From Anadara kagoshimensis (Eukaryota; Mollusca; Bivalvia; Arcoida; Arcidae): 64,000 bases of DNA. How positions within the stretch are numbered: the stretch's first letter is position 1; every line of letters begins with the position of its first letter. Shown in pieces: positions 5,196 to 57,850 of this stretch. Below the pieces are notes generated by a model. It saw nothing but the letters and a program-made list of their open reading frames with translations, searched no databases and was not told the DNA's origin. The position numbers and the translations under genes are program-made. The DNA is taken from assembly GCA_021292105.1 (NCBI GenBank), contig CM037861.1, forward strand, positions 50,432,920 to 50,496,919, read 5' to 3'.

Positions 5196-8100
5196 CTGAA
5201 AACCAACATTTTACAGTTAAATAACATGTACCAAAGTCAAGAATAGCATGCTATAAGAGGCTGAGTATAAACGAGTTTACCACCAAGGTATAAGTTCCAA
5301 CTGAGGACGGGTACCTGACCCAATGCCAAATAACGCCCAGTGGTGTATTTTAATCAATCGAAATGAGATTAAATTCCAATACCATAGTTGGAATGCATAT
5401 TAATATTTAAAAATGAATTCAAATATCACATGCAGTGATTTTGTTACCCTACACAAAAACAAAATCTGAATTTGAAAATTGAAGATAATTTGCAAATGTA
5501 AATTATGTATTAGACAACAACCATCACAATTAAAACAACTATAATAATAAACCAGACAAATAAGACTAGCAAATGCATATAAAGACCGATGACTATGAAA
5601 GTTTCGACTTCGAACAGGCATTTAAGTATACATCCAGTATTTGAGGGTCCCAAAAATCCTCATATTCCGCAACCAGTAGTGCAGTGCAAAAATAAGCATA
5701 TTTTGAAAGAAAAACCAAAACAAATACGCCTTGCTTTACCAATGAATAAAAAACCCGTCCATGTTAATGTCATGAAAATTTTAAGTACATAGTTAATCGT
5801 TTAAAAAAAAGGATAATATACTGTACTATAATTACTATTCTTCAAAGAAATTAGTTATAATAATGTATGCTTTGCATAATCGTTTTTAATACATGTTATT
5901 AAGTAATAAGTGCATGGATGAAATGGACAGATGAATATATTGCATTTGTTACTACTTAACAGGAGGTGCTTACCATCCAGAGCACCCCACCTCACTTCCT
6001 TGTTGGAAGTTCACGTGTTAAATTGCCAGTTGTTTCAAAGTTTTTACTAGAAAATGAGTTGGTCTGGTTTTATTACTACCTAATTAGAGTTCATTGTTAT
6101 TAATATAGAAATAAATGGAATGTTATCTAATGGTGTGATATTCGAGTTTTTAGTTGCATTTTTATTATAAAATATAAAGATATTCATATTGTTAAATATG
6201 TTTAAACTTACGAAATACATTCAGTATTATAATTGCATTCTTCAATGTCGTACGATAGCGTTACCGTATATCCAGGATTCTTATATGATGTTTCCAAATA
6301 CAAATATTGACCTAAAAATTGAAATATGATTATTACATATTACACCAGATTTAATTTTATGACACTAAACGACCGTTTCGGAATACAATTCCTCATCAGT
6401 AGTGCCTTGACCGTAATTATGAAACTTAAACTGTTTTCAAGATGACGTAAAGATACCCTAAGGACAAAAACTAATTTTGCCGATACTGTACTTTACCTAA
6501 TAGATTAAGTCTTGACTTTGGAAAAAATTGAGATTACTTCTAACAGTTTGAAAGTATACAAGCATTCAACCAACTATGAATTCGACCATAATTATTACAT
6601 AGATGAAATAAGCATAGCATGGTTTTCAAAATGACACCTTAAATTCATGAATATCTTAAAATTAACAAAATTACTCAGCTTTCAAATTCGCCAGTAATGG
6701 TAAATCTTTGTTAACTAATGATTGTGAAACTGGGGCCCTGGAAGAATAAAGGTACCAGTTATATATTATACCAGTTTTAATTTTACAGCACTAGACGGCC
6801 GTTTCGAAATTCAATTCCTTATCAGTAGTGCTTGGATCGAAATTATGAAACCAAAATTGTTTTCAAGATGTGAAAAAGATTACCAAAGGACCAGGGTGAG
6901 GTAAGCAGTTGCTTACTCTTACCTAAATTTGATCCTCTTTCCGTTTCATCTCCATCTGGACCAGTACCTACTGTTGGTGTTGAAAAACGCTGTTGAGTCC
7001 ATCCAGAGTTTTTCCATCCACACAGTCTTTCTGCTTCGTCAAATGAACACGAAGAGCGGTGATAATCTAAAAAAAATCATATACAATGTAAAAAAACTAG
7101 TAATGGGTCCCAAAATTTTTCCTATCACGATATTTGCCGGACTTTTTATTTTCCTTAGAATAAAAATTATGTGCTCGGTGTAAGAGAGTAAACATAACTG
7201 TACTTGCATATTATTTGCAAAGTATGGCTCCTATCGCTAATCAAACCATGCAAATAAGCATATTCTTAATTCTCACTTTGTTTTCTATTTATTTTAGTCT
7301 ACTTTCACTGGTTAACATCTTTTACTTGAGATTTCATCATTTACAGGCTCAAAATAGAGTTAATATTGAAGTGGTTCTATCCTTCCTGATTTTAAGATAA
7401 ATAGGTGTTGAATTTAAACACGACATAATGATGATTGCTATGATGATAATGTTATTACTCCAGTGATATAAAATGTGGTTGTCCAAAGAACAACAAAACT
7501 ACAAATTCCGTCAAAAACTTCACACACACACAGACACGGGGTGAAATACTTTTACTTGAATGACTATTTCTGGATACTATTTTACAATTGTATGGACATC
7601 ATTAATGAAGGACATTTGGCGCGAATCAATCTCGATCGCAGGATCATTCAGTTGCTACCGAGTTTATCTTTCACGAACATTTGCCCAAACCACAGAAATT
7701 ATAACATCATAAACTCTTTAGAAGCGGACTTTTGTCGCTAAAATGTAGTCAAGTACCTTAGTACATGCAATTAAGCAATGCAATCCTGTTACCGTTCTGC
7801 GCCAAACGCCTTCAGTTCAGTACAATTCTTATTAAAACAGCAACAATAAAAAATACCTCCTTCTCTAAAACAGTATGGTTGTTGTCCAGACCAGGTTCCA
7901 TCCAGCTGACATCGTCGTATATTAGCCCCAAATAAAATGAATCCTTCCCAGCATTTGTATCGTGCTTCAGATCCAACCTTTCTAGAATTAAATTCTCGAA
8001 CCCCATTATCAACATGTGGTGGAGCTTTGCATTCAGCATGTTCTGTTTGAATGAAAATAAAACTCGGCTATAGTATATTTTTGTTAGAACGTTTGGTAAG

Positions 8101-11100
8101 AATATTGTATTTAAGCTTAGATCCAACCTTTCTATAATTAAATTTTTGAATCCCATTTCAAGCTGTGGTAAAAGCTTTGCATTCAGCATTTTTCTATTTG
8201 AATAAGAAACACCCCTATAGCAAATTTTTGTTAGCCCTTTGGCTAGAATCAGAATACTTATATGGATGCTCTTATATTTAATGAAGTTTGCCTTCTTATC
8301 CCGTTGTTTAATAGAGCGATGCATATGTTTTCTTGATGCAATAACAACTAAATAATGTTGCACAAAATTACATCTTAATTTATTACAGAGAAACCTATTT
8401 CAGTAAATGTGTCAGCTGTATCCATGCAACCCAGTCTCCATTATACATTTACATTTGAAATTCGAACCAAGGCAGAGTTGTGAACAGGAACATTGCGTAT
8501 TTATTAAGAATTTCATCATAGTTTAGATATACGGTCTTGTATCATGAAGTTTCGACAGAAGTAAATCCTTAATACCACTGTTTTTAAGGTCATTGAAGTC
8601 CTTATTATTGAAAGAGATTAACTTACGGCACTGGTATCTGTGGTTTAATTTTTGTATATCTTTTGTGGACAGCGCATTTCTCTGACCAATTTGTGCAATT
8701 TCTGTTTCTGACATTTCTATCTTTGGATTCAGAGTCTTTAAATTGTTCTTTGAAAACGCATACAGCGAGTAATGCATTACTGAGAAAAAGTCGTAGTCAG
8801 GGTCCAACTCTGGTACCGGTCGTTTATGAAAGTTTGCTTCTTTGCCTAGTGAAATTAAATGTATTGAACATAAATGAAATAAGTCAAAAACAAACATATC
8901 AATCCATGTCAAAATCACAACCCCAAAGTAAAGCAAAAACTTTGAAACTGGCCAATAAAGTAAGACACGTGAACTTCAACCAGGTAAGTGATGCCGGGTG
9001 ACCTGAAAGGGTAAGCACCTCCTGTTTATCTGGCTACACTCGCCACTTATGCAGTGTCACAAGCTGATAATATATAATTCAAACAAGCGACACTTCATTT
9101 GCATTTGAACTTCAAACTATCGTACCAGACACTATTTTACATCAACTAGGGATTTGTTAACAATGAAATTAATTCAATTTTGGCGACTTACATACTGTAT
9201 CAGTTTTAACTTTACAGCACTAGTCGACAGTTTGGGGATGCAATTTCTAATCAGTAGTGCTTCGACCAAAATTATGAAGCAAAAATTGTTTTCAAGATGT
9301 TGAAACGATATCCAAAGGACCAAAATGTATTTCAACAAATTGAGCTAAAAGAGGAGAAGATTTGGCTAAAGATATACTTTCTGTGAAAACTATTTCAACC
9401 AAAAATTCCAGAAAAACCTTTTACATTTGTTGAATCCCATGAATTTCTTTCTATATTTTAAAGTTGACACAACTTGACCAATATCAATTATTTATAACTG
9501 TTATTAAGCTGTTTTTATTTATAGAAACACCGACGATGCCGAACAGTATTTTTCTATCTGCATCAACTGAAAATCTGTTTCTTCGGCCCAAAGTTATCAG
9601 AGGGGGTAAATTTTAAAGAATCGACTACAAATCTCCATTTGCAATATCTACAAATATTGGACGAAGGTAATTGTTTTAAAAAAATCCGTAATATATCTTA
9701 AAAGATTATATATCAAAATAATTCACATTTGATTCAAATTGATCTATAAATAAAAATGTTAAATCAAATCATGGTTTTTATCAATGACGGCACGTTATAC
9801 TAGATTCCGGATTTTGGTTTGTCAAATTTTATTGGAGTTATTATGACTCTTTTACTTCGTCGATTAAAATACCTTGTCCGGAATTAATTATAACCATGTA
9901 AGGCCTCAGTGGCTGAGTGCCTAAAATTTCCAATTGCGGACCGCGTCTCTCACGCTAAGATTCTAACTACATATGACAGACCCTTGTGTAAGAACCTTTA
10001 TGGGTTCTCTTGCCGAAGTCGGTGTTTCAATAAGGTTTCAAAAATCCGCTCTAAAACAGCGTGAAAGAACCGTGGCTGGGACTCTCTATAAAAGCACAAT
10101 AAACATGTCAGTAATTTAGTCTAGATACATGCTGTATTTCATACCATCTTGGATATTGTCTGTCATGACCTCAAGCTTCTCATCTCTATCAAATCTGTTG
10201 TGCTCGTGTAAAAACCCTAGGGCATGCATTAGTTCATGTTGAATTGTTCCCATTCTTGCCAGACAGTCCCTTCCAAGTGACAACCTCTGACCACCACGAT
10301 TCTGTTTTCCCACGGGACTGTAACACCTGTTTAACATCAACAACATACAAGTTGATATTATTCAATTATTTCATTTGAGGTAATTTAGAACCAGTGCTTA
10401 TGGATCGCAGTGCCTCTTTCCGTCTTTGTTAGAATCCCACTGGGGTAAGTCCCTATCGGGATAAAGTTTAACAGTTCTCTTACCGATGGCCGGTTGTTTA
10501 CTCCGGGCATACCGGTTTTCTCAACAATTCCAGATCTGAATTCTTTAAGATCAGTAAATGAATCACTTCTTCACGCATTCGAGGCAAATGCAGGTATAGA
10601 ATAAATATTTATTACTTTTGAGTCAGGAAGACTCGTGCAACTAAACATATTTTTATGGCGAAGTGTTGTTATGGGTTAACAAATGATTTTATCCTCTCCC
10701 TCAAAGGTAATATAAATAATAATCATTTTAATAAGAAAATGAACGTGCAACACACTACCAAAAATCAAATAGGACAACCCGAAAGTCAAGAATCTTGTTT
10801 ATTTCATTGTTTATTTCATTGCCACGGGTAACATCAGACAATTTTTGTAATTACAAATGCGGAGTTTTCTTTTGGCAATTGCAATTAGTCTCTGAACAGC
10901 TGTATTTATTTTTGTCATCGTTTGGGACACGCAATAACCTCTGTCCTATCATTAATAGAGACTGTGCTCACCAAATAAATTGGCAGCCATCTCTTAACAG
11001 AAGTAATAAATGGCAGATGCTTATTTTATAGGGTTATTAAACTGATATTGTGGAAAATTGTCCCTCGTTGACTCGACATTTGCACGAGCTTGCGAGTGCA

Positions 11101-12539: not shown

Positions 12540-15500
12540 ATGGTATATGATATATGTATACTTACTATATTCGTTGGCTAGTGTGTAGGGAACCAGTCGT
12601 TCCAGCCAAAGGTTATCGAGCATTGTCATTGACATAAACCCAATGTCTATCTATAAAGTATAAAAGTTCGATATGTAAACTAAGTTGATAAAATAATATC
12701 AAAAGCCTTATATTTATAGATAATTATTATTTTGTCATCCACGGCATGTTTTCAATGAATGACTTCAAGTTTGTAATTTGTGATTATGGTTTGAAAACGG
12801 ATTGGTATGTTTGTTTTTGAGTTATTGTGAGTAATTATAAATGAAATGAAAGCTAAGATAATGTGCACAATATTCAGCTGTTTTCTATTATAAACGGATA
12901 TCACTTTTGTATATTAAATATATCAAAAACAAACATACTAATTAATGCACGAATTACAATCCATAAGCAAAGTTAAAAGTTTGTAACTGACAAGTCAGGT
13001 AGGACACGTGAACTTCCGCCAGGGAAGTGAGGCCGGGTGTTCCGGAAGGGTAAGCACCTCCTGTTAAGCTACCCGCCACGTGTGTATAATCAAAATTGTG
13101 TGAAAGGAACACGAAACTGTGGGCCGTCAAATATATCCAGGAAAATCCTGAACACAGAGACATAAATCTTATCAACAATACTGTAATGACGGCCAAAATT
13201 TTTTGGAGGACCTTGATAAGCCTAGGCTTGCAATATATAATAAATAAATCTACATAAGGTGTGTCACATCGTCATGATTTATGGTGGGGGGTTATATTAT
13301 TTTGTTCCAAAAAAGAAGCATGATTATTATATTGATAAAAATGTGTTACTTCCCCCAAATAAGAGTGTGTGGTACTCGTACAGGCTTATTGGATAAAAAG
13401 TTTGGTTGGTAATTCAGATGTTTTTGGTTGTTGTACAAAATACAGTTTAGTTGAGTAATGGTGTTTAACGTCCCAGTCAAGAATATTTCACTTATATCGA
13501 GACGTTGCCGGCTATTAGCGAAGGTGCAGAAATTATGCCTGTGCGTTGCGCTTATGACATTATACAGCAGGGTTCTTAATCGTGCCAAGCCTACCGTGAC
13601 ACGATACCTCGTTTATTTTAAGTTCCCAAAGAACGTGACTTCCATTTTGTGATGCCGAGTGCTTGGCGAAAGAACAGTCACTATCAACTTTCAAGTCTTG
13701 GGTTACCCCCAGTCGGGGTTCGAACCCACGACCTCCCACTTAAAGAGCGAGCACTCTAACAACTGAGCTACCGTAGTGGTCTAGATTTTGCTTGATCAAT
13801 AAATGATAATTAAAACAAAACTTGTTGAATCAACTCATTTGGGGTTAAATAAAGATTATTTTCTACCTCTTCATTATAAATATCGCCCTCTGTTAAAGGT
13901 ATGCTTCTTTCATCTTGATCAAATATCCTTGAAGCAACAGTCTAGATTAACAAATTACAAGTTTATACATTAAAATAGCGGAAATTGACTAATATAGAAT
14001 TTGCAGTCAAAATTTAAACTTGATATACTTCTTCCATCTTGACCGAATACATCCTTGAAGCAACAGTCTAAATTAACAAATTACAAAGTTTATACATAAA
14101 AATGTCGTGAATTGACTAATATAGAATTTGCAGTCAAAATTGAAACTTGGTATACTTCTTCCATCTTGGTCGAATATATCCTTGAAGATACAGTCTAAAT
14201 TAGCAAATTACAATTACAATGTATAAAAATGTCGGAATTTGAGCAATATAGAATTTGCAGTCAAAATTGAAAATTGGTATACTTCTTCCATCTTGACGAA
14301 CACATTCTTGAAGCAAAATCTAAATTAACAAATTACAACATGTCTAAACATTAAAATGTCGGAAATTGAGCAATCAGGAAATTGTTTTGAACATCGAATC
14401 TTTTGTTTCAAAGACGGTCCGTTATAAAATTAGGTCAACCATTCAAAATGTTTTGCCAAGTTTTGACGATGAAGTTTGATTTGGACCAAAAAAAAAAAGA
14501 AATCAATGATTAGCAATATAAAGACCAAATAAATAAATAAATAATAAATAAATAAATAAATAAATAAATATAAATAAATAAATAAAAATAAATATTTTAA
14601 TGGCATTTTTCTCAAACTTCTAAATAATTAAACTTCACGATAGTGCCTTTTTAATATTTTCACATATATTAACATTATATTGATAAAGTAATTTCTAACA
14701 TATACATTTAATGGCCATTACCTTAAGGCCAAGTGTCTATAGATGTTGAAAAACCTGTCAAAAAATTAATAATCAAATTAATTAAAACTTAAAAAAACTT
14801 ACTTAGGTTCAAGTTCTGTTCCGGACAGGTATTATCTTCCTTGTGGCACGGGCACATCTGGAAAAAAAAAAAAGACACAGATTAATTTAATAAATATCTG
14901 GACCAATACTTTTGAATATATTTCTCTATCTCTTACCGAATGAAAATAAAAAAAATAATATAGAATATAAAAATTTGAAGGTAACTTTGCAAAAAACTAG
15001 TTTATTTATCAGTTCGTAAAGATGCTATTTTTAAGATTTTAATAAGTAATGCAATTGTTACTGTCTTAAAATGTTTTAACCGCCCTTTTCTCGTATCCAT
15101 ATTTCCAAAAAATGTTGTAATTTTGTAGCTCAAGAAGGTCGTTTCGGAATTGAATTTCTCATTAGAAGTGCTCAGACCAAAATTATGGAAATCCAAATAT
15201 TTTTAAGATGTTGAAATGAGAAAAATAGGACTAATGTGTATTTTACCAAATTCACCTAACACAATGCTTTGACCGAATACGTATAGCTTAGTATTTTGAG
15301 GAATTTCAAAATTTCAGAAGCAAATGGTTTAATTGAACAATGTTAATCTGACTGTTCTATGAGTTGCCTCCTGGGTTAACTAAAACCTCGGGAATACGTA
15401 GTCCACCAGCAGAAATACCTACCAAGTACGGAATGCCTGAGTCACATTAATAACTTAGTCTAGGATTCATCACTTAATCCTGGATTTTCTTTACTTCATT

Positions 15501-16504
15501 GGAATTACAGTGTATAACTCCACTTAAGTAGTTAATTCCACTTAACTGTAGTTAAACATCTAATTAACATGAAGCAGAGAAAATGCATTTTCTCTCACTT
15601 AATTCAACTGAAGCTGAGTTAACTAGAGTTAACTTAAATTAAAGTCACATTAATGTGCTTCATCCTAGATTAAGTAGCAATAATCATAGATGAAGTTACT
15701 TAATCCAGGATTAAGTAGCATTAATCCTAGATTAAGTAAATTAATCCTAGATTAAGTAAATTAATCCTAGATTAAGCAAATAATGTGACTCAGGCATTCC
15801 ACAACCAAGTACTTATAGTGATTACTAAACAAGTTTTTAATTTTACAGCAGTAGACGACCGTTTTAAAACTACAGTAACCACGCGATACATTATAGCTAC
15901 AGTAAAGCAACATGTCATAAGTTTAACACTAAGCTAACCAATCATCATCTCATCTCGGTACCTCGTTAGTGCCATCTCGGTACCTCGTTAGTGCCATCTC
16001 GGTACCTCGTTAGTGCCATCTCGGTACCTCGTTAGTGCCATCTCGGTACCTCGTTAGTGCCATCTCGGTACCTCGTTAGTGCCATCTCGGTACCTCGTTA
16101 GTGCCATCTCGGTACCTCGTTAGTGCCATCTCGGTACCTCGTTAGTGCCATCTCGGTACCTCGTTAGTGCCATCTCGGTACCTCGTTAGTGCCATCTCGG
16201 TACCTCGTTAGTGACATCTCGGTACCTCGTTAGTGCCATCTCGGTACCTCGTTAGTGCCATCTCGGCAGTTTTTCTACCGCTGATATCTATATCTGGACA
16301 GCTTTTTGGGTCACTAACTATCCATATATCGTCAGCTGAACTTTGACTCCTTTGACACTTGTCTCAGTGTTAAACTATCGACAGGCCTGTATTGTATTTT
16401 GTTTTGTCATCCATTATAAATTATGTACTTACACAGACCGGAAACGGATCCACAATATCCCAAGACAAATTCCACACCAAGAGAATATAGTAAACCTTGT
16501 CCAT
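4991..16504 (-). CDS. Astacin-family zinc metalloprotease with CCP and MAM domains (10-exon model)
   Basis: Secreted M12A endopeptidase, predicted to be extracellular. Model exons: 16504-16433, 14857-14803, 12646-12566, 12220-12082, 10326-10145, 8845-8627, 8042-7857, 7066-6923, 6311-6212, 5195-5048; all junctions are GT-AG and phase-compatible, giving 442 codons. Order: hydrophobic N-terminus (1-24), short propeptide-like part, astacin domain (about 54-249), CCP (251-311), MAM (about 317-442). The zinc-binding signature HELMHALGFLHEHNRFDRD begins at residue 146, and the Met-turn SVMHY has Met200. The four standard astacin cysteines are present (TCIRF, NGCYS, GRDC, HRYQC). There is an extra pair in CDKNKEHSEC. 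The MAM domain lacks its usual C-terminal GDIAxDDI part. Either exon 10 reads on to the stop at 4991-4993 (460 aa), or it splices at the strong donor at 5047 to an exon I did not find. Exons 1-2 are less certain than 3-10. A 5'UTR intron is implied by an acceptor at 16515. Confidence 0.85.
5950..6056 (+). mobile_element. Retroelement 3'-tail fragment
   Basis: Matches the tail seen at 3624-3800 in reverse: 'ACAGGAGGTGCTTACC', then 'GGAAGTTCACGTGTTAAA', then 'CAAAGTTTTTACT'. No coding part. It lies in the intron between exons 9 and 10 of the astacin gene. Confidence 0.7.
6212..6311 (-). CDS. Astacin gene exon 9 (MAM domain, middle)
   Basis: Joins exon 8 to make GSNLGQYLYLETS, the conserved MAM G-x-Y-L strand, then continues to DIEECNYNTECI. 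Acceptor TTTTTAG, donor GTAAGT. The intron upstream carries two hammerhead repeat copies in the sense orientation. Confidence 0.85.
6361..6406 (-). ncRNA. Hammerhead ribozyme, type I, core intact with a GUU triplet
   Basis: On the minus strand, in order: GGCACTA (stem I 5'), CTGATGA box, GGAAT-TGT-ATTCC perfect stem II with a 3-nt loop, GAAA box, C-GGTC-G tiny stem III, cleavage triplet GTT, then TAGTGTC (stem I 3', 7 bp with one G-U pair). Only the triplet departs from the family consensus GUC; NUH triplets including GUU are known to be cleavable, usually more slowly. The predicted cut is between 6368 and 6367, inside an astacin intron in the sense orientation, 56 nt upstream of exon 9. Activity is inferred, not shown. 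Confidence 0.75.
6788..6831 (-). ncRNA. Hammerhead ribozyme copy, core-mutated
   Basis: Same layout as 6361-6406. Stem I (GCACTA/TAGTGC) and the GTC triplet are intact. The box reads CTGATAA instead of CTGATGA (conserved G8 changed), and stem II has one G-U pair. Likely inactive. Sense orientation in the same astacin intron. Confidence 0.6.
6923..7066 (-). CDS. Astacin gene exon 8 (MAM domain, first part)
   Basis: Acceptor after a T-rich tract (TTTTTTTTAG), donor GTAAGA. Encodes CSFDEAERLCGWKNSGWTQ followed by TGPDGDETERGSNL, the usual MAM start (C-F-E...LCGW...W...TGP..D). Phase 1 at both ends. Confidence 0.88.
7857..8042 (-). CDS. Astacin gene exon 7 (CCP/sushi domain)
   Basis: A single exon encodes one whole CCP module of 61 residues. 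It opens ECKAPPHVDNG, continues GSEARYKCWEGFILFGA, then RRCQLDGTWSGQQPYC, so the four cysteines and the late Trp are in standard spacing. The phase-1 to phase-1 exon is typical of shuffled extracellular modules. A longer ORF across this locus is out of frame and not real. Confidence 0.92.
7971..8262 (-). pseudogene. 150-bp tandem duplication of half the CCP exon (pseudo-exon at about 8119-8190)
   Basis: 'AGATCCAACCTTTCT' at 7969 recurs at 8119, and the match runs about 145 bp through the 5' half of the CCP exon into the upstream intron. In the upstream copy the exon part has one extra base after the acceptor-like AG. This shifts the frame and gives an immediate TGA, and the 3' half of the module is absent. 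It cannot encode a second CCP. Confidence 0.75.
8627..8845 (-). CDS. Astacin gene exon 6 (Met-turn and C-terminal lobe)
   Basis: Acceptor TTTCACTAG, donor GTAAGT. Encodes KEANFHKRPVPELDPDYDFF, the Met-turn SVMHYSLYAFSKN, AQIGQRNALSTKDIQKLN and the closing cysteine of HRYQC. It ends in phase 1 and joins the CCP exon. Confidence 0.93.
8880..9060 (-). mobile_element. Retroelement 3'-tail fragment
   Basis: Shares 'TCCATGTC..AATCACAA', 'AAAACTTTGAAACTG' and 'GACACGTGAACTTC' with the tail at 3624-3800. Its end lies about 35 bp from the exon 6 acceptor. Confidence 0.75.
9217..9260 (-). ncRNA. Hammerhead ribozyme remnant (decayed)
   Basis: Stem I arms (GCACTA/TAGTGC) persist, but the boxes read CTGATTA and CAAA and stem II is broken. 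The surrounding repeat spans about 9185-9350. Sense orientation in intron 5 of the astacin gene. Confidence 0.5.
9893..10090 (+). mobile_element. tRNA-derived SINE-like element (Leu/Ser-type head)
   Basis: Begins with GGCCTCAGTGGCTGAGTG, an A-box-like start of a long-variable-arm tRNA, followed by a diverged B-box region (GATTCTAAC) and a body with 'GGGTTCTCTTGCCGA'. A related body seems to occur at 10395-10550. No intact tRNA fold is evident. Confidence 0.5.
10145..10326 (-). CDS. Astacin gene exon 5 (zinc-binding active site)
   Basis: Acceptor AAACAG; donor at GATG|GTATGA. Encodes CYSPVGKQ, then LSLGRDC, then the complete HExxHxxGxxHExxRxDRD signature and the NIQDG loop. Choosing the GTATGA donor joins NIQDG to KEANFHKRP, the normal astacin continuation. 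All zinc ligands and the catalytic Glu are intact. Confidence 0.93.
10395..10550 (+). repeat. SINE-like body fragment
   Basis: Contains 'GTTAGAATCCCACTGGGG' (B-box-like), then 'TTCTCTTACCGATGGCCGG', resembling the body at 9960-10030. Intronic. Confidence 0.4.
11032..11484. mobile_element. Multi-hairpin foldback element
   Basis: Three nested inverted repeats. The first (11032-11149) has arms of about 54 bp, nearly perfect, built round TTGTCCCTCGTTGACTCGA. The second (about 11238-11271) has arms CACTAGTTCTT/AAGAACTAGTG. The third (11394-11430) has perfect 12-bp arms GTTAGCGTGCAA/TTGCACGCTAAC. TTATTATATAGCAA at 11153 is repeated inverted at 11471-11484 and may mark the true termini of a 332-bp element. 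Noncoding; intronic. Confidence 0.7.
11488..11733. mobile_element. MITE-like element, family C, copy 2
   Basis: The left end (GGTTCCGGTATTACAATCAT, then TTCTTAACTAAGAT) is inverted at the right (TAAGTTAAGAAAT, then TGGTTGTGAATCCGGGGCC). Same family as 1449-1702. It abuts the foldback element. Confidence 0.55.
12082..12220 (-). CDS. Astacin gene exon 4
   Basis: Acceptor TTTTTGCAG, donor GTAATG. Encodes IEEKQTIQYAIFNLESK, then TCIRF with the first conserved astacin cysteine, then CDKNKEHSEC, an extra cysteine pair, and NYIQIVKENG. The phase joins exactly with exon 5 to give NGCYSP. Confidence 0.88.
12504..12537 (+). repeat. Poly-A tract
   Basis: An uninterrupted A run of about 34 bases close to the exon 3 donor, in the intron between exons 3 and 4. 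Confidence 0.95.
12566..12646 (-). CDS. Astacin gene exon 3 (start of catalytic domain)
   Basis: Encodes IGFMSMTMLDNLWLERLVPY and TLANEY. The NLW...VPYTL segment matches the usual N-terminal W-x(n)-IPY start of mature astacins. Donor GTAAGT at 12565-12560. Two acceptors lie 4 bp apart (12651 and 12647); the second gives the phase-compatible join to exon 2. Confidence 0.8.
12925..13240 (-). mobile_element. Retroelement 3' fragment
   Basis: Covers the tail and the end of the RT coding region (antisense of the 'GRHHNIVDKFDVS'-type C-terminus). Same arrangement as at 3624-3950. Frameshifted. Intronic. Confidence 0.75.
13453..13780 (-). mobile_element. tRNA-derived SINE, copy 2 (best preserved)
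   Basis: On the minus strand it starts ACCACTACGGTAGCTCAGTT (A-box region) and contains GGTTCGAACCC (perfect B box). The core follows and ends through 'CTCGATATAAGTGAAATATT' and 'TTGACTGGGACG'. The tRNA-like head lacks a full cloverleaf, and the long body shows this is a SINE, not a tRNA gene. Confidence 0.85.
13900..14370. repeat. Tandem repeat, about 125 bp x 4
   Basis: 'CAGTCTA(A/G)ATTA(A/G)CAAATTACAA' recurs near 13939, 14065, 14189 and 14316, together with 'TAGAATTTGCAGTCAAAATT' and 'TATACTTCTTCCATCTTG'. Unit about 124-129 bp. Intronic, noncoding. Confidence 0.8.
14526..14594 (+). repeat. AAAT microsatellite
   Basis: Runs of AAAT units with a few interruptions. An ORF across it (LFIYLYLFIY) is an artefact. 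Confidence 0.95.
14803..14857 (-). CDS. Astacin gene exon 2 (cysteine-rich pro-region, tentative)
   Basis: A 55-bp exon with a strong acceptor (long T run, then CCAG) and a GTAAGT donor. It encodes MCPCHKEDNTCPEQNLNL and ends in phase 1, which matches the acceptor chosen for exon 3. The sequence is not recognisable as a classic astacin propeptide. Confidence 0.55.
15110..15330 (-). repeat. Ribozyme-repeat copy, decayed
   Basis: The hammerhead region (15127-15172) keeps GAAA, but the first box reads CTAATGA and the stem I arms are mutated. The downstream repeat body 'ATGTTGAAATGAG' and 'TGTATTTTACCAAATTCACC' matches other copies. Sense in intron 1 of the astacin gene. Confidence 0.6.
15430..15803. 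mobile_element. MITE with exact 9-bp target duplication and internal repeats
   Basis: GGAATGCCTGAGTCACATTA at the left is inverted as TAATGTGACTCAGGCATTCC at the right. ACCAAGTAC flanks both ends (15421-15429 and 15804-15812). The interior holds repeats of ATTAATCCTAGATTAAGTAA. 9-bp duplications are typical of Mutator-like elements, though an hAT-type origin is not excluded. No transposase. Confidence 0.75.
15835..15870 (-). repeat. Truncated ribozyme-repeat remnant
   Basis: Only 'TTTTACAGCAGTAGACGACC' survives, before the sequence runs into the mariner-type MITE at 15900. Confidence 0.5.
15900..16394. mobile_element. Mariner-type MITE (family M) carrying a minisatellite
   Basis: The left end (CAGTAAAGCAACATGTCATA, then AGTTTAACACT) and right end (AGTGTTAAACTATCGACAGG, then CCTGTATTG) form an inverted repeat, flanked by TA at 15898-15899 and 16395-16396. 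The better preserved copy at 60221-60422 has the same termini. About 316 bp of the interior is the 22-bp minisatellite. It ends 38 bp from exon 1 of the astacin gene. Confidence 0.75.
15951..16266 (+). repeat. 22-bp minisatellite, about 14 copies
   Basis: The unit CATCTCGGTACCTCGTTAGTGC repeats almost without variation (one GTGACATC variant near 16212). Each unit carries GGTACC. The near-identity of the units suggests recent expansion inside the MITE. Confidence 0.97.
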
Positions 16505-18240: not shown

Positions 18241-18280
18241 TAATATACATAAAAGATATAATACACGAGGAATAAAAAGC

Positions 18281-18345
18281 AACACTGAGGAGGAATTGTA
18301 ATCCGAAACGGCCGTCTAGTGCTGTAAAGTTAAAACAGGTATAAT
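18281..18345 (+). ncRNA. Hammerhead ribozyme remnant, plus strand
   Basis: The 3' half is perfect (CCGAAAC-GGCC-GTC, TAGTGCT, then TGTAAAGTTAAAACAGGT). The first box reads CTGAGGA and the upstream stem I arm is lost. Truncated and inactive. Confidence 0.6.
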
Positions 18346-21300
18346 ATGTTATTTCATCATATAAAAAGTATCTAATTTTACTACGTTTTAAGATAATTGG
18401 CTACAGGAACATTAAATAAGTTTTCTGATGCAAAGAACATAAGTCCAACACCGGTAAGTTAAATAACGTCATTTTGAATACGCCTCGGCGTTATAGAAAA
18501 ACTGATAGTTGATTATATACTGTTTTTTTGTATGTTTGTTATTTTTCACCAGGTAGTTGCAATATGTTTATTACTTGAAAAAACATGTGGAATTTATAGA
18601 CTTTATATAAACATTGCGCAATATGTTTTTTTAATTTAATTGATGCAAGCATTCGTCATCCACTGGCTTAATTGTCAAGCCAAATTGGAGAATGTTATAC
18701 GCAAATGTATTTCCTTTTTAATTCAGAAGTCCCATGCAGTTATCTTGTTTTTTTTATTGTATTCATTTGTTTTGTTCTTGGTTGCTATGGTAATTTTTAA
18801 TGATGTTAAATAACTAAACATGATATGTTTACCCTTCCGCACCCGGCCTTACTTCCCGTGGTCATTTACTTGCTAGTTTTTAAAGTTTTTACCTTAAAGC
18901 TTTGAAATTCAGACATAGATAGGTATGATATTTTATATTGTTCATTGAAATGTACATATACAATGTATGAAGAAAAACTCAAGTTTTGTAAAAATAATCT
19001 TGTACGGTCAAAACATGTCTGATTAATCAAATCCATACATCTTCCGGGTTATGTTCTTGGAAATTTCAAATAAAACTCATCATGAATTTTTATGTGTGCA
19101 TTATTACCAAACCATTATTATTTTTGCAGCACTAGACAACCTTTTCAGAAAAAATCCTAACCATCAGTGCTCGGACTAAAATTGTGAAAATTTAAATATT
19201 TTTAAGGTGATAAAATGAGGAAATAGAATTACAAAATTCAATTCAATATGCAGTTGAGTAATAAAAAAAAGAAGAAAATAACAAAACTGCAATGGAAAGT
19301 AACAAGAATTACAAAGAAGACATACAATATTTCTGTTGCAATTACTCTGAGGTTGACCCTATTTTATAGAATGGCTGGACTAAAAGGCAAAGTAAAAATT
19401 TTGAAAACTGGCAATAAATCCTTTGAATAAATCAGTCCGATACTTGAACAAATACGTAGAATAATTTATATGTAATGAAACATTACGCAATGTGTTTATA
19501 TGTGTTTTATATTCAATTGGTGCAACCATTTGTCATCAACTCATTATCGTCTATTGATCTAGGAGAATATTATTGGTTGCTACCATAGATTTAAACCCTT
19601 ATAATTTCGTCTTTATATAACCATTTTAGATAATTTGAAAATTAAGACTTACATATAAAATATTACAAATTAAATTAACAGCAAAATAAAATTATAGACC
19701 ATTAGGTCTTAAGATCGCCGATTTAAAATAAAAATATTAAAATGTATAGGCCCTAGTGGTGTTGCAATTGCGCAAGATGCGTTTTGCAAGATTCTAACTT
19801 AGCATTCCAATTATATTGCAACGTGTATCTATTTACCATACCAAAGTGATAGTCATTAGTATGTTATATTGTCCATAGTAATGTAAAGTATAAAGAAATA
19901 CGCAAAAATTTGTTTGAATTATCTGTATGGACAGATAAATTCCCACGCATCATTCCGAGTCATGTTCGGAAAAATTTTATGACATGTTGTAAAGAATCTT
20001 ATGTGTGCATTATTACTGAACTTTTTTAATTCTGTAGCACTAGACGGCCATTTCAGAAAAATTCTTCATCAATAGTGCTCGGATCGAAATGTGGAAATCC
20101 AAATATTTTAAGATGTTGAAATGAGAAGATAGAATTACAAAATGTATTTTACCAAATCCACCTATACATGACAATTTTATTTAACAACTAGGGGTGCTTA
20201 GGTTTTGTAGAATTTAAAAAAATTAATAAGCATCAAAGTAATTAGAAAACAAATAAAAACTTCTTAAACTTTTAATGTTATTATACACACATTATAAATA
20301 CAATATATGCAGATAAGTAATAAAAACAGACTAAACAATGAATTGCATGGAAAAATTGCAAGTATTACAAAAAAACATTAAAACAATGTATTTCTGAAAA
20401 GATCCCCTATAATGCAGTACTCATGCATAAAACCGTTGATGTTTTTATTTGCAAAAATCTATGAAAGATAAATTACACAATTCAAAACAAGAAATACACC
20501 TCAATTTTGCAAACTGAGTAAAGAATCTAATTCAGAGTGACCATGTTAAGTTTTAAACCGGTACTGAGGACACGGGTAAAAATACCGACATGGACTATTT
20601 TATTTTCTCCGAGGAAACATAGATAATAGAAAGTTCATTGATAAAAATAGTCTGGGGTACATGAGGTACGTTTTCAATATACCAACGTTGGCGAGTGTTA
20701 TCCCATACATCACACAATATAGATGACACAATACGAGTACACAAAATAAGGGTTATTATTAAGATAGGAATCGTTATCATAAATTAAACTGACCGATAAA
20801 ACCACAATACGACTCTTAAACCTTACATCAGGATTCTACAATAGATTGTATCAACATCTAATCTGTAATCTACAACGCTTATGATACTCAAAAATATACC
20901 GATTATAAATATTTTCTCTACTAAATCAAATCTTTTCTTTCAAAAACTGTAAAATTTCAAGATGACAGGTTTATGACTTCAGTTTAAATTTATAATACAC
21001 AAAAGCAACTGTTAGATAAACTTACCCATTAACTCACAGCATACCCATAACTTACTCTAAACTTAAACTGGACAGTTGTGTTTAACCTTAACTTAAAATA
21101 ATAAATCTTTTGTGTCAGAATTTTTCTTTCATTTAATTCGAAAAATATCCAACAGTGAAAATATTTGAAAAATTAGAAAAAATAATTTAATTAAAGTAAA
21201 ACGTACCTCTTGTTTCCACTTTCAAATTAGGAATTCTACTTCAAACTTCGTGGACATTTAAACTCTTTTCTGAAGAAGAGATGAAAACTGTAAATATTTA

Positions 21301-23324: not shown

Positions 23325-23355
23325 TTAGTTTTACAGCACTAGATGGCCGTTTGTC
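23325..23355 (-). repeat. Ribozyme-repeat remnant
   Basis: 'TTTTACAGCACTAGATGGCC' then GTTTG: the stem I and stem III side of the hammerhead only. Confidence 0.5.
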
Positions 23356-24179
23356 TTTCAAATTTATTCCATCAAACTAAAAACTTATCCTAGTTAATAA
23401 AAATACTTTAATGTGTTCTCATAAATAATAATCATTAAAAACTCTACAGAAAAAAAACTACAATTTATAGGCAGTGCTCCAAATTTTGTTGTATTGAAGA
23501 ATTATTGAGCCTAACAGCTAATACTGAGTAAGCATTTTTACACACATATAGATTATTAACTGCTGTTGTAAAAAATAAAAAATACGAGCCGTGAATAGAC
23601 AGTAAGGTATTTTAAAAATCCGAAGCTGTATAAGTTTCTTTTTATTTTTAACGTGTCAACATTTTATCCAACAATACCAATAGTGTTATAGTCTCAAGAA
23701 ACTTATACCATCTTTAAAACAGACACTTAAAAGCAGTCATTGTTTAAAGCAAGTTAAAACTAAAACCGTCACAAGTAAATACAGAACAGTGAATGTTGGC
23801 TTCGTTTTGTATTTTTATTTTATTTTTTTTCCCTTTCGAACATTTTCGATATGATCGGATTATGTATATCTTATTTGCTTTTATTTATTTATTTTATCTG
23901 AGAAATTAATTGACTTAAGATTTCCACGATTAACGAATTGTGTATCAATATTTTGTTTACGGAGCACTAGATGTAAATGTAAATGTATATTTCAAACGTA
24001 CATTTCAAAGTGACTTACTAAAAAACGTATATACAGAAATTTTACTTGATTTTTTTTATTTTATTACTCTGTAATTTTTCACCACCATCCCTCATTTCAA
24101 ATTGAAATAACGTCTAAAACAAACCATTTGCGCGTAATTCATTACAAAAACAGTAACTTACGATTTAAAAATCTAGTAA

Positions 24180-26839: not shown

Positions 26840-27210
26840 CCTGTTCTAATTTTACAGCACTAGACGGTCGTTTTGGAATTAAATTCCTCATCAGTAGTGC
26901 TCGGACCAAAGTTGTGGAAATCCAAATGTTTTTTTTTTTAGATAGAAATGGAATAAAGGAAACAAACACCCCTAAGGTAGAAAATCTGGTGTTTTTTCTT
27001 CAAGTGGATACCGAAACATGTCGACACGCCAATAAATAATATCATAAATGTTTTACCATGTGTTGAGATCCATTTATTTAGTATAAATATGTTTTTAAGA
27101 TGTTGAAAGAAGAAAAATAGAAGGACACTAAATGTATTTTACTTTGAACGATTTGCATATATATACCTTAGTTTTTTAGGTATTTTAAAATTTAAGAAGC
27201 AGGTAATCTT
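26840..27210 (-). repeat. Ribozyme-repeat copy with an interrupted body
   Basis: The hammerhead at 26857-26900 has intact stem I, CTGATGA, stem II and GTC, but the second box reads AAAA instead of GAAA (G12 lost), so it is probably dead. The body resumes at about 27100 after roughly 160 bp of unrelated sequence. Confidence 0.65.
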
Positions 27211-30375: not shown

Positions 30376-30696
30376 GTGATTCCTCGATATAAGTGGTTTA
30401 ACAACCTTGTATGAGTTTCAAATCATTTATTAGTATTCAACGCTTTTGACAAATTCAATCTTATATAAACACGAAGGTACGATTCTATTTATTGTAAAAC
30501 CACAAACAATCTATTTTTTATAATTGAGATTTTTCCTCAATATGCATTTAATGTTAGTATATACCATCACGTGTATTCATTAGAAGCAATACCAGGTTCA
30601 CATTTACGTAACGTCAGAATGACGGTAGATTTTTACTTGTATGTTCAAGTTTATTTTGATATGATCATTACATATTATACCAATTTTAATTTTACA

Positions 30697-30946
30697 GCAC
30701 TAGACGACCGTTTCGGAATACAAATGATGTATCACCGGTCACGCCCGCAATGTTCCGACAAAAGCCCAGCATGCTTAAATTACACACAAAAGAATGGAAA
30801 CTCGGCCTGAATTGTGCCATTTAATGTCGTCACAAACACTAGTACGCCATTAGTTACCGTGACGCTGCTTTGGTACCATGATGGCGGCCAGTGTCGGAAC
30901 ATAAAAGGCATGGTCGGCGAAACGTCAATTCCTCATCAGTAGTGTT
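30697..30946 (-). ncRNA. Hammerhead ribozyme with a 200-bp insertion in the stem II loop
   Basis: The two halves are 30697-30723 and 30926-30946. Joined across the insertion they keep every core element: the stem I arms, CTGATGA, GGAAT/ATTCC stem II, GAAA, C-GGTC-G and GTC. The insertion point is exactly the loop of stem II. The insert's own terminal inverted repeats would continue stem II as a long helix. Whether it cleaves is unknown. Confidence 0.7.
30724..30925. mobile_element. MITE, family G (about 200 bp, about 35-bp TIRs)
   Basis: The left end GTATCACCGGTCACGCCC leads to AATGTTCCGACA; the right end inverted reads GTTTCGCCGACCATGCC, then ATGTTCCGACA. A second copy, in the opposite orientation, is at 43424-43622. 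CAA may be a 3-bp target duplication. GC content is above the surroundings. No ORF of substance. Confidence 0.75.
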
Positions 30947-43423: not shown

Positions 43424-43622
43424 TCGTATCGCCGGCTGTGCCTTTTATGTTCTGACACTGGTCGCCATCACGGTACCAAGGCAGTATCACGGCAACTTTT
43501 GACGTACTAGTGTCAGTGATGTCATTAAATAGCTCAATTCAGGCCGAGTTGTCATTCTTTTTGTGTGTAATATAAGCATGCTGGACCTTTGTCGGAACAT
43601 TGTGGGCGTGGCCGGCGATACG
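43424..43622. mobile_element. MITE, family G, copy 2
   Basis: Ends TCGTATCGCCGGCTGTGCC and GGCGTGGCCGGCGATACG are inverted. The interior shares GGTACCAAGGCAG and GGCCGAGTTGTC-type blocks with the 30724-30925 insert in reverse orientation. Confidence 0.75.
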
Positions 43623-46229: not shown

Positions 46230-47535
46230 GACATATTAATTGTTTATGAAATTTCGTAAACCATTAGTCTTTCGAAGTTTGTGTCCTTCTTCATATTCTT
46301 TTTTACGGAGCTATTTTTCACGAAATTTCGCAAATCATTCCTCCTTGACACTCTTAGTTTTACTCGTACAACCGACAGTCAAAATACTGTTATTTTTGAA
46401 CCACTTTCATTGGAAGAATTATGAGTCCCAGTGTTAAGAGACAGGAAAGACAAGTGTATTTCTCTAAAAAAAGTATAAGGCGTTAACTTGCCTCTCATCC
46501 TTAAAATGTGCCTTGCCTTTAATTAAAAACTAAGGCTTCTGTATAATCATAACAGGAAATAACACTATAACAGTAAAGGCTACTCACATTTCAGATCCAA
46601 GTTATTTAGATGTTTTTTCTTTTTCAAACCATGTCTTGTATTGTTGCCATCACTACAAGAATACAATTATTTGGGACCAATGCTACACAAAACAAATAAG
46701 ACGTCGGTGTCCTTTGATGGTATTAACCAAGGACATAATATAAAGGGCATGAAAGGCTATTCGACTATCATATCATACTCTTAAAGTCAAAATAAATTAT
46801 CGGAAATCTCATCACAGACCATCTCTGCGATTTATAATTGCTAAAGAAACTATGACACTTGTTTTCCTGTGCGAAGTATACTAGTATGTGGTAATCGCTA
46901 AAACCTTCCATATACATCTATTAGATGTATAAAAGGAATGGAAGATATTTAGTCCATTCGTTTTGCAAGAAAGAGAGAAAAGATACTTTAAATGTGAGTT
47001 CATTAAATGTTTGACGGAAGTCATTATGTCCGTTTTTTGTTTTGGACCAGTCACTATAATATATGCCCCTGAATTATCTCCCCTTATTTTTCTTCTCCAT
47101 TTTCTTAATCAATGGATAAATATATTTGTGTCATTACAACACTTACTTGTTTTTCAATGTTGTATCTATTTCAAAAAATTGTTTTGGCCATACACCCAAA
47201 AGTACCACGAATTAGGAAAGGATTGTATCAAGAACAATAACATAAATAGGTAGTTAGTGCATTCGACAGAACATTATTTTTCTCTTTAGCTTAGTGAGTT
47301 TTGATTAATTAGTTTTGGTAATGGAACCACCATGTGAAGCCAGTGAGAGGGTATTCAAACACTTTCTTCAGGTAAATGTATGTAATCGTTGCTTAAAATA
47401 AGAACCTTAGCGAGAGAATCAAAGTGGTATGTTTTAAATCTTTACCTAAAATAAAATGGGTATGCAAAAGACCCCCATCTTATGACTTTGAGGCCAAGAT
47501 CAGACATCTTTATCTGTTTTGTTACTATACAAATT
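46230..47535. other. Unassigned sequence
   Basis: A stretch near 46240-46350 resembles 44540-44620 (both contain TTCACGAAATT(C/T)CG, then AAATCATTC), so some is another dispersed repeat. A 96-aa ORF at 46963 has no recognisable domain and I do not call it a gene. Confidence 0.35.
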
Positions 47536-47539
47536 ATAT

Positions 47540-48066
47540 GAACTGTTTACAGTATCAAAGGGATTAGAAGGTGATGACACACATTGTTACAAATAAAGTC
47601 TCAACGGCTTTGTTGTTCTTTTTTTTGCAACGTGATTAAGTGAGTTCTTTGTTAACACCTTAAGTTTATAACTGCTATTGCGGCACATACACTCCGGATG
47701 ACACGTACCCTCCAGATGACACATACACTCCGGATGACACATACACTCCGGATGTCACGTACACTCCGGATGATCAGCCATTTCTGGCATTATAGCATTG
47801 ATTGATGCTGAAATACCAGTAAGACGTGGAGCTACGTCTTTGTTAAATTGTCATGTCAACAAAACCCTAGAAAATAAATTTGCAGCTAATTAAAATTGAA
47901 AATTCCTTAAAAACTAAGGTATAATCCTTCTTGCAAAGTATTTCTTGGTGAAATGTATTTTGATCATTTGGGTATCTTCTCAACATCTTCACAACAATTT
48001 TGGTTTTATAATTTTAATCCAGACACTACTGATGAGGAATAGACCGTCTAGTGCTGTAAAATGAAA
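47540..48066 (+). repeat. Ribozyme-ended repeat unit, copy 1 of a tandem pair
   Basis: Blocks 'CATTGTTACAAATAAA', an 18-bp minisatellite (ACACTCCGGATGACACAT, five units, 47688-47775), 'GTAAGACGTGGAGCTACGTC', 'AACAAAACCCTAGAAAATAA' and the ribozyme-repeat body occur in order. It ends in a hammerhead (48021-48056) that has lost part of stem II and GAAA. Confidence 0.8.
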
Positions 48067-48129
48067 ACAAATATTTAAATTTTTTTTTTTAACCTATTGA
48101 TATACAACTACTATGATCTGTTTTCATAT

Positions 48130-48680
48130 TAGTGTTAAAGGGATGGAAGTTGATAACATTGTTACAAATAAATTGTCAACAGCTTTGTTGTCTCTTTGAA
48201 AAGAGATAAAGTGGGTTGTTGGAAAACACCTTAAGCTTATTGCCGCCTAACACAAAGAAAACATGCTTTTTCATCACGTACCTTGCGGATGACACGTGCC
48301 TTCCGGATGACACGCACAATCCGGATGACAGGAACCCTCCGAATGACCAGGCATTATGGCATTATAGCATTGAGCAATGCTGAAATACCAGTAAGACGTG
48401 GAGCTACGTCTTTGTTTAATTGACATGTCAACAAAACCCTAGAAAATAAATTTGCTGCTAATTAAAAAAAGGAAATTCCTTAAAAACTAGGGTATACTCT
48501 CTCATGCAAAGTATTTCTTAGCAAAATTTGGTAAAATGTATTTAGGTCCTTTGGGTATTTTTCCAACATCTTGATAACACTTTCTGATTCATAATTTTGG
48601 TCAAAGCACTACTGATGAGGAATTGTATTCCGAAGCGGTCGTCTAGTGCTGTAAAATTAAAATTGGTATAATATGTAATT
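48130..48680 (+). repeat. Ribozyme-ended repeat unit, copy 2 of a tandem pair
   Basis: Same block order as 47540-48066, with four minisatellite units (48275-48345), ending in the hammerhead at 48605-48650. The two cleavage positions are 595 bp apart. Confidence 0.8.
48605..48650 (+). ncRNA. Hammerhead ribozyme, type I, nearly consensus
   Basis: Stem I AGCACTA/TAGTGCT (7 bp), CTGATGA, perfect stem II GGAAT-TGT-ATTCC, then GAAG (the last A of GAAA changed, giving G-U instead of A-U at the base of stem III), C-GGTC-G and triplet GTC. Predicted cut after C48643. The A15.1 change may lower activity. Confidence 0.72.
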
Positions 48681-48889
48681 TGTATATCTCTCTAGTTTCT
48701 GGTGGATTACATCAATGTTCAGTAAGTTAAAATAATATGTTGTAAACCGTCAGAAATATGCCTGCTACCCGCTAAAAGATGGTTGGCTGTTTGAATGATG
48801 CCTACCGTCGCATCAGCAATTTTTTCAGCTATTCGCCACGAGAACGATTTAATTAATCCCTATGGATTAATCTATGAACAATTTCATGT

Positions 48890-49204: not shown

Positions 49205-49490
49205 CCCGACCTGTTGTATAGCATATTATACCAGTTTTAATTTTACAACACTAGACGGGCGTTTCGGTTATACAATTCCTCAACAGAAGTGCTTGGACCA
49301 AAATTATGAAACTAAAATTTATTCAAAAGGGTTGAAGAAATATCCAAAGGACTAAATAAATTTTACCAAATTTAGCTATGGAAATACTTTGCATGGGGGA
49401 GTATACCGTATTTTTTTGAGGATTTTAAGATTTTCACCAGCGGTAAATTTAGACAATAGTATATTTCTTACAATACAAAAGTATTGCCTT
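49205..49490 (-). repeat. Ribozyme repeat, near full length
   Basis: The hammerhead (49248-49292) keeps GAAAC-GCCC-GTC, but the first box reads CTGTTGA and stem I has a mismatch. The body extends through 'ATATCCAAAGGACTAAAT' and 'GAAATACTTTGCATGGGGGA'. Confidence 0.7.
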
Positions 49491-49549
49491 TTGAGTAAGT
49501 GAAATCATCGGGGAAACATTCACCGGCAGAGAAACCGTCTCAGTGGGTG

Positions 49550-49762
49550 AAATTACATATTATACCAGTTTTAATTTAACAGCACTAGACGGACGTTTCA
49601 GAATACAACTCAACATCAGTAGTGCTCAAACCAAAATTATGAAACCGAAACTGATTTAAGGGGTTGAAAAAATATCCAAAAGGACCAAAACATATTTCAC
49701 ATAATTTAGCAAAGGAAATACATGCATTAGGGAGTATACCTTAGATTTATAATAGAAACAAT
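49550..49762 (-). repeat. Ribozyme repeat, second copy in the same orientation
   Basis: The hammerhead (49582-49625) has intact stem I, GAAA and GTC, but the box reads CTGATGT and stem II is disrupted. It starts about 335 bp from the neighbouring copy. Confidence 0.7.
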
Positions 49763-50939: not shown

Positions 50940-51085
50940 CGTTGGATAAATTTGGTTAAATATGTTTTGGTCATTTTGGATATTTTTTCAACCCCTTGAA
51001 CAAATTTTTGGTTTCACAATTTTGGTTCAAGTACTACTGACGAGGAACTTTGTTTCGAAACAGTCGACTAGTGCTGTAAAATTTA
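50940..51085 (+). repeat. Ribozyme repeat, plus strand
   Basis: The hammerhead (51030-51075) has stem I, CTGACGA (position 7 is free to vary), a paired stem II GGAAC/GTTTC and GAAA. The triplet reads GAC, so U16.1 is lost and it is probably inactive. Confidence 0.7.
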
Positions 51086-57624: not shown

Positions 57625-57850
57625 TTATTATATTAGTTTTGATTTTACTGCACTAGACGGCCGTTTCGGCCGTTTCCTTATCAGTAGTGCTTGGACCAAA
57701 ATTGTGAAATCAAAATGGTTTTTTTTTAAATGTTGAAAAGATGCCCAGACGACGGAAATATATTTTACCAACATTAGCTAAAGAAATAATTTGTATGAGG
57801 AGTAAACATTAGTTTTTTAGTAATTTCAAAATTTAAGAAACAAATAAAGA
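57625..57850 (-). repeat. Ribozyme repeat copy
   Basis: The hammerhead (57650-57690) has intact stem I, GAAA and GTC. The box reads CTGATAA and the stem II region is replaced by a second CGGCC/GAAAC-like duplication. Probably inactive. Confidence 0.65.

Follow-up and report, generated by a model that had tools for sequence, protein, structure and literature searches.

The 64,000-nt stretch of the Anadara kagoshimensis genome analysed here (the window; C5:50432920-50496919 of a 1.115-Gb assembly in 36 contigs) carries a dispersed family of repeats, the core of which, judged from its consensus, is a type I hammerhead ribozyme opened at stem I. Genomic insertions of this family share a 3' end located tens of nucleotides past the predicted ribozyme cut, and reverse transcription seems to begin at this fixed internal point, on RNA that is uncut at the ribozyme. 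Our results support the view that the repeats are a mobile, non-autonomous retroelement. Its group, which the original prediction had left open between retrozymes and Penelope-like elements, resolves best to the animal retrozymes without long terminal repeats (non-LTR retrozymes). We are highly confident of the retrozyme identity alone; the whole retrozyme chain, circular RNA included, is in our opinion a reasonably probable explanation.

Ribozyme core and tandem units

The sense-strand consensus reads AGCACUA-CUGAUGA-GGAAU-UGU-AUUCC-GAA-AC-GGCC-GU-C-UAGUGCU and comprises a 7-bp stem I, a CUGANGA box, a 5-bp stem II with a 3-nt loop, GAAA and a GUC triplet. Helix III consists of two pairs (A15.1-U16.1 and C-G; AC/GU), capped by a self-complementary GGCC loop. 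The consensus reproduces the core layout given in the original prediction (stem I, CUGANGA, 5-bp stem II with UGU, GAAA, 2-bp stem III, GUC). An extra paired element beyond stem I (UAAUUUU/AAAAUUA), spanning an asymmetric internal loop, is paired in 84.7% of cells; it shows zero double changes, so its support is the pairing itself. Two consensus cores are predicted to fold exactly as a double hammerhead (-34.5 kcal/mol), which a control with GAAA loops does not. Among four pairs of actual window copies that were tried, 18281 nearly adopts this fold and 6361 with 6788 does so partly.

The exact 24-mer core CTGATGAGGAATTGTATTCCGAAA is present 5,200 times in the genome (2605 forward and 2595 reverse; a backwards control gave 0). 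For closer analysis we used 80 stretches of contig C1 (L009-L088) around exact-core matches, with 89 exact cores; 11 listed places were omitted. These stretches hold 33 exact full 46-nt cores, and the consensus core is reproduced exactly in a young array of five 339-bp units (98% matches) at C1:310.3-312.0 kb (L009, 1271-2967). The 339-nt unit of this array has a guanine-plus-cytosine (GC) content of 33.9% and encodes no protein of its own, the longest stop-to-stop frames being 112 amino acids in antisense and 68 amino acids in sense. The array (1270-2967) corresponds to 5.01 turns of the unit, and its start lies at about the same unit position as its end, as if copying had stopped at its own start.

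The family occurs as tandem dimers and as longer arrays, of five units and more. A 28-mer across the unit junction at position +38 (counted from the predicted cut) is found 969 times genome-wide (493 + 476; reversed control 0), in places in runs spaced by about 339 nt, e.g. six at C3:9334947-9336641. In the 80 stretches (119 cores), 17 of 30 same-strand neighbours are spaced by 307-363 nt, as compared with 1 of 19 opposite-strand pairs; duplicated loci were kept in this count and four of the 17 come from the L009 array. Units of 339 nt at 34% GC, tandem dimers to arrays of at least five units, and the presence of helix III point best to a retroelement of the non-LTR retrozyme kind.

Insertions end at a fixed site past the predicted cut

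Alignments were extended outward from the core against the 339-nt L009 unit treated as a circle and numbered from the first base after the predicted cut (position 1). This gave 85 insertions; 8 duplicated loci were dropped (leaving 77) and 25 insertions with element-like flanks were set aside, which left 52 clean insertions. Duplications of host DNA on C1, recognised by the same 5' end and flank, are L027/L029, L030/L033, L043/L044/L045, L058/L059, L071/L072, L078/L083 and L080/L084.

The 3' ends of the clean insertions fall within a narrow interval: 49 of 52 lie at +26 to +42, and 38 of these 52 at +36 to +42, the typical end being ATGTAATT. The other three end at 21, 325 and 333. None of the 52 ends within 5 nt of the predicted cut; the insertion that stops at 333 (L031), i.e. 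6 nt short of the cut, has a flank that continues to ATATGTAATT. The set of 77 gives the same picture (67 at +26 to +42, 48 at +36 to +42 and a single one within 5 nt of the cut). This one, L088, ends at +2 and is the sole row of all 85 that lies so close to the cut. Its flank continues with the usual end, ATATGTAATT, and we therefore read it as an internal deletion.

The 5' ends are, by comparison, scattered: those of the 52 occur in all ten tenths of the circle, more of them in the middle, and one is at the cut. Clean insertions measure 0.19-1.72 turns, plus one of 5.01 turns, and nine exceed one turn. Genome-wide, a 29-mer ending at +38 occurs 3,216 times, of which no more than 969 (at most 30%) continue exactly into the unit. 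In the window, where two subfamilies are represented, the pattern is the same: ten first-subfamily copies match up to 34-51 nt past the cut, with 5' limits from -20 to -214, the -20 being the inner end of a split copy. Copy 48023 stops 26 nt and copy 23332 stops 30 nt past the cut, and the second-subfamily copies 20035 and 19125 have sequence in common as far as about +90.

A cut template primed at its end would give insertions that end at the cut, and a cut template primed internally at +38 would give 38-nt scraps devoid of the ribozyme. Neither was found, which argues for a template that is continuous across the ribozyme junction. In the accessible text of the open-licence literature searched, we found no description of a fixed insertion end for animal retrozymes.

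Statistical support for the family

A single-sequence profile of the 52-nt core (E ≤ 10) detected 18 places in the window. All 14 positions named earlier are included, the weakest being 48021 (E 0.003), which confirms that the dispersed hammerhead-core repeats are real. The four further places, remnants among them, are 19125, 23332, 15843 and 30924 (all on the minus strand); 30924 is the second half of the copy at 30697, which is split in two. When 15 copies were used to train a covariance model, 17 window matches were obtained with E ≤ 1, and 15 of these reached E ≤ 2.4e-4; the training copies match by construction.

A strict hammerhead descriptor accepts a single site of the window, 6361-6406, and none in 100 windows simulated with a first-order Markov model. 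Rfam, applied to the whole window and to two stretches of it, reported no hammerhead even at E ≤ 10. Background scores at 6361, 30697 (joined) and 48605 had been named as a sign against the family; they were indeed obtained for 6361 and 48605 (30697 was scanned in the whole window, unjoined). The family is not refuted by this, as the window copies are decayed and an intact relative in the genome does match: RF00163 scored 28.1 bits (E 2.1e-5) against the first unit of the L009 array, the one isolated intact copy scanned. This value is under the 34-bit gathering score, perhaps owing to the short helix III.

Compensated changes in the stems, which had been put forward as an argument for a real fold, do exist, and within the window they are suggestive, no more (3 double-changed pairs versus 1.2 ± 1.0 in shuffled alignments, matched by 47 of 500). 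When the family model was applied to the window together with 72 of the 80 loci (the 8 duplicated ones being omitted), it gave 125 matches, 23 of which are tied at the top score. On the 95 distinct rows among these matches, 9 of 14 pairs are double-changed versus 4.1 ± 1.5 after shuffling (0 of 500), in an alignment that is fitted to the structure, is uncontrolled for relatedness and consists mostly of loci picked for an exact core. The clearer contrast is in the pairing itself, with 89.5% of cells paired in the 95 rows and at most 48% when the partners are slid.

A comparison of the two subfamilies points in the same direction. The likeness of the ribozyme stretch between them (0.72) is close to that within them (0.76 and 0.71), whereas the stretch 80-104 nt upstream of the cut (-104 to -80) falls to 0.44 between subfamilies from 0.71 and 0.56 within. 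Intermediate stretches give 0.58-0.65. The outermost ones give 0.33-0.40 and are low within subfamilies as well, because the copies end there. Conservation of the ribozyme stretch alongside divergence upstream of it suggests that cutting is important at some stage. No match to a degenerate 26-nt core pattern was obtained in viral contigs or in prokaryote genomes.

Proposed mechanism and alternative explanations

Based on these observations, we suggest the following course of events. Tandem units in the genome, each of 339 nt in the young subfamily, would be transcribed, and type I hammerheads would cut the transcript after GUC, probably best when paired through the self-complementary ACGGCCGU helix III, as the predicted folds suggest. 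By analogy with published retrozymes, a host ligase would close the unit-length RNA into circles. A reverse transcriptase acting in trans would then initiate at a constant internal site, about 38 nt past the cut, copy backwards across the uncut junction of the ribozyme and on around the circle, and stop at variable points. Insertions with a single fixed 3' end, scattered 5' ends and, in some cases, more than one turn are the expected outcome. The genome may thus record rolling-circle reverse transcription of ribozyme-made circles by a trans-acting, probably Penelope-like enzyme, which starts about 38 nt past the junction and proceeds for a fifth of a turn to five turns; the role of the ribozyme in mobility would be to make the circle, whose closed junction is then read through. 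We consider the chances of this full statement to be evenly balanced.

Ribozyme activity, the circles and the mobilising enzyme are the parts of this proposal that we infer. A circle is a likelier template than an uncut multimer by analogy, as published retrozyme RNA is largely circular (about half in coral and axolotl, mostly so in mussel; PMC7229834). As for the enzyme, a Penelope-like element is the favoured candidate, given that reverse transcriptase frames with a GIY-YIG domain exist in the genome and that a known Penelope-like element initiates internally. Among the four frames that we tested, L096 and L097 (762 amino acids) contain a reverse transcriptase and a GIY-YIG domain, and L094 a reverse transcriptase. 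The fourth, L089 (G000:C22:287804-288031), is a UvrC gene (Pfam E 3.9e-31) and not a retroelement; there is a TGA inside its GIY-YIG match, and it may be a bacterial sequence in the assembly. The authors of PMC7229834 proposed circles as templates and Penelope-like enzymes as likely mobilisers, and insertion boundaries are not given in the accessible part of their text. The fixed start and the junction read-through, seen here in many copies of one genome, turn this proposal on how animal retrozymes re-enter DNA into a concrete, testable site.

Several observations weigh against this mechanism. A continuous template may be a circle or an uncut multimer, and both would leave the same ends; the published circular share is partial in coral and axolotl, so circles are not a given. 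Our sample is biased towards intact cores on one contig, where insertions that stop short of the core are invisible, and an insertion of a cut monomer would show. No target site duplications were seen across 15 window copies. In 48 genome insertions their mean length was 4.90 versus 4.60 ± 0.14, a value reached by 5 of 300 permutations and marginal at best; single candidates exist, e.g. TTATATA at L009. When partners in the 95-row alignment were slid by one column, there were still 8 double-changed pairs, with 18 double-changed cells as against 13 unslid. The predicted folds are not uniformly favourable either: a single consensus core has a non-hammerhead minimum (-12.3 versus -7.8 for the hammerhead), and in the monomer hammerhead helix III costs energy (-7.8 with it and -8.6 without). 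The original prediction expected the ribozyme to act best as a dimer, and this is supported in part, by the modelled consensus pair, yet not by two intact-core window copies, 6361 and 30697 (joined), which gave no double-hammerhead fold. Moreover, animal retrozyme circles are described as highly self-paired, whereas linear folds of the Anadara units of 334, 339 and 426 nt are no more stable than shuffled sequences (z -0.03, 0.04 and -0.60, respectively). The value for a 595-nt unit is -1.95.

The explanation that comes nearest retains the same element and assumes that insertions are copied from uncut linear multimers, with the ribozyme inactive or masked in the transposing RNA. The same fixed 3' end and multi-turn copies would be expected, and ribozyme mutants of an Anolis Penelope-like element left insertion in vitro unaffected (PMC11167929). 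However, retrozyme circles are abundant where they have been measured (PMC7229834), and the ribozyme stretch has been kept between subfamilies (0.72) in contrast to the sequence upstream (0.44), as if cutting mattered; we regard this explanation as rather unlikely. Short and long interspersed elements (SINEs and LINEs) likewise combine 5' truncation with a fixed 3' end, and one might imagine a SINE-like linear RNA terminating about 38 nt past the cut, its tail merely trimmed by the hammerhead, with no circle or multimer. The nine of 52 insertions longer than one turn, the one of 5.01 turns and the 969 exact unit junctions make this very improbable.

It is harder still to accept that the repeats derive, as pseudo-LTR pieces, from an autonomous Penelope-like element equipped with this hammerhead. 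Hammerheads of type I are indeed borne by such elements, which insert with ends located downstream of the ribozyme (PMC11167929); the genome has at least 50 GIY-YIG matches at E ≤ 0.001, and the frames L096 and L097 combine such a domain with a reverse transcriptase. Published Penelope-like hammerheads, however, usually lack helix III (PMC7761336), which here consists of AC/GU with a tetraloop, and five 339-nt units abut directly in the young array. In addition, we scanned 9 of the 50 reported GIY-YIG loci (eight of about 3.2 kb and one of 4.2 kb; one of the nine is UvrC), and none of them has a minimal hammerhead of its own; the sole match, in L093, looks like an ordinary, independent insertion of the family. 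Finally, the silence of Rfam in the window and the weak covariation there could suggest that the hammerhead likeness arose by chance in an unrelated repeat. The Rfam match to the young array (E 2.1e-5), the ribozyme stretch kept between subfamilies and the pairing on 95 distinct copies leave next to no room for such a coincidence. Our preferred reading is still a retrozyme copied from circles.

Copies in the window

The window copies appear, from their base changes, to be mostly old, dead insertions, with a GC content of 31.5-35.1% in three units. All 12 tested core positions are kept in 3 of 15 cores, namely 6361, 18281 and 30697 (flanks joined); the remaining ones bear changes such as G8A, G12A, A15.1G and U16.1A. 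The GUC triplet of the original prediction is correct for the consensus and not for the core at 6361..6406 (minus strand). In this otherwise intact copy H17 is U, the cut triplet being GUU, the helix III loop is GGUC, and the predicted cut falls after 6368. Its same-strand neighbour at 6788..6834 (426 nt from cut to cut) has G8 changed to A. The minus-strand core at 9213..9262 is decayed (G8, G12 and U16.1 changed).

The second subfamily is represented by decayed cores at 15127..15172 (G5 changed), 19125..19172 (found by the profile and by the covariance model) and 20035..20080 (C3 changed; a stem II pair G-C turned into A-U), all on the minus strand. Two profile matches on this strand, at 15843..15868 and 23332..23352, are 3' remnants that start inside the ribozyme. 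The former adjoins a 22-bp minisatellite (15951-16266; 14.4 copies, 99%). The plus-strand copy at 18278..18326 is a 5'-truncated insertion with intact core positions, which begins at stem I and has a poor 5' arm of this stem. Further minus-strand cores lie at 26853..26902 (G12 to A) and 57646..57693 (G8 to A; stem II altered), and a plus-strand one at 51028..51078 (U16.1 to A; last pair of stem II U-A to C-G).

The copy at 30692..30946 (minus strand) is split by an insert of about 200 bp in loop II (30724-30923); when its flanks are joined, all core positions are intact. The insert has an 85% identical relative at 43425-43628. A same-strand pair at 49218..49758 (minus strand; 334 nt from cut to cut) contains cores 49582 (A9 changed) and 49248 (A6 changed). 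On the plus strand, 47526..48690 holds a dimer of longer tandem units, spaced by about 580 bp and by 595 nt from cut to cut, with cores 48021 (deleted) and 48605 (A15.1 to G). Both long units contain an 18-bp minisatellite, CACATACACTCCGGATGA (47684-47773 and 48275-48347). A 114-nt stretch beside it is 94% identical between the units, most other aligned blocks being 78-92% identical. Near-terminal inverted repeats of 14 nt in this dimer (47526-48686) were considered and dismissed as, by a rough estimate, within chance for AT-rich DNA.

Gene context and other features of the window

Cores 6361 and 6788 lie in sense within a 611-nt GT-AG intron (6312..6922, minus strand) of an astacin-Sushi-MAM gene; the second copy stops about 9-18 nt short of the end of the intron. 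The joined exons around the intron encode a MAM domain (E 2.1e-8), preceded by a Sushi exon (within 7792-8067) and an astacin exon (within 8526-8975). An astacin active-site motif is at 10238-10203, and the decayed core at 9213..9262 lies in sense between astacin exons. Judging from its intact core, the ribozyme at 6361 could cut this intron, and an intact sense copy in such a place offers a natural test of the effect of an embedded ribozyme on the host transcript.

Fragments of reverse transcriptase are present at 4024-4434 (minus strand), 24169-24489 (plus strand) and 45551-45904 (minus strand). They bear MGTNCA and YIDD motifs and may resemble fragments found in bivalve genomes. No Pfam family scored above the cut-off for them, and the best PDB match, telomerase (E 0.28), was not significant. 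Their shared 3' region ends near GTATGTTTGTTTTTGAT, near positions 3615, 33523, 44971, 57963, 61585, 26465, 25496, 12922 and 8876. A link of these fragments to the hammerhead was rejected: one of nine aligned 3' copies (near 57963) is followed within 500 nt by a core on the same strand, and another 3' copy (near 50045) has a core about 420 nt downstream, both of which we take as coincidence. The window also contains a DDE_Tnp_4 transposase remnant at 54586-55551 (the tested part being 55144-55548), which we assume to be Harbinger-like, and a 353-amino-acid open frame with a rhodopsin-type seven-helix receptor domain at 52381-53442.

Comparison with known hammerhead elements

Animal non-LTR retrozymes are non-autonomous elements with type I hammerheads in tandem repeats of about 150-450 bp, a GC content below about 45-50% and, when present, target site duplications longer than 4 bp. 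The Anadara family shares with them its 339-bp tandem units, dimers to multimers, low GC content and lack of its own protein. Compared by description, it resembles in particular the retrozymes of Acropora, Mytilus galloprovincialis and axolotl (PMC7229834), which likewise have type I hammerheads in low-GC tandem units of a few hundred bp, thousands of copies, and dimers to longer arrays; the mussel ones amount to about 5,000 copies in 350-390-bp repeats. A two-pair helix III with a tetraloop is described in the same paper for invertebrates and for axolotl HHR_Amex2. The longer 595-nt unit with a minisatellite sets the Anadara family apart from these retrozymes, as do its linear folds, which are not unusually stable.

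The satellite hammerheads of newt and axolotl (PMC7229834) are similar in their weak helix III, a palindromic tetraloop favouring dimers and units of about 330-350 bp. A self-complementary tetraloop is noted there for axolotl HHR_Amex1, which, likewise by description, has one helix III pair as against two in Anadara. Penelope-like elements and Terminons carry minimal hammerheads (PMC7761336, PMC11167929), which are of type I too and are thought to act as dimers, and insertions end tens of nucleotides past the cut, at an internal start of reverse transcription. These hammerheads, however, usually lack helix III and, where mapped, lie beside a reverse transcriptase frame, whereas the Anadara family has helix III and no attached frame. 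For the Anolis Penelope-like element we calculate, from positions 26 and 111-118 (PMC11167929), a start about 85-92 nt beyond the cut, as compared with about 38 nt here. We conclude that the family is best described as a previously undescribed member of the animal non-LTR retrozymes, with decayed copies in the window, to the knowledge of which it adds the anatomy of its insertions.

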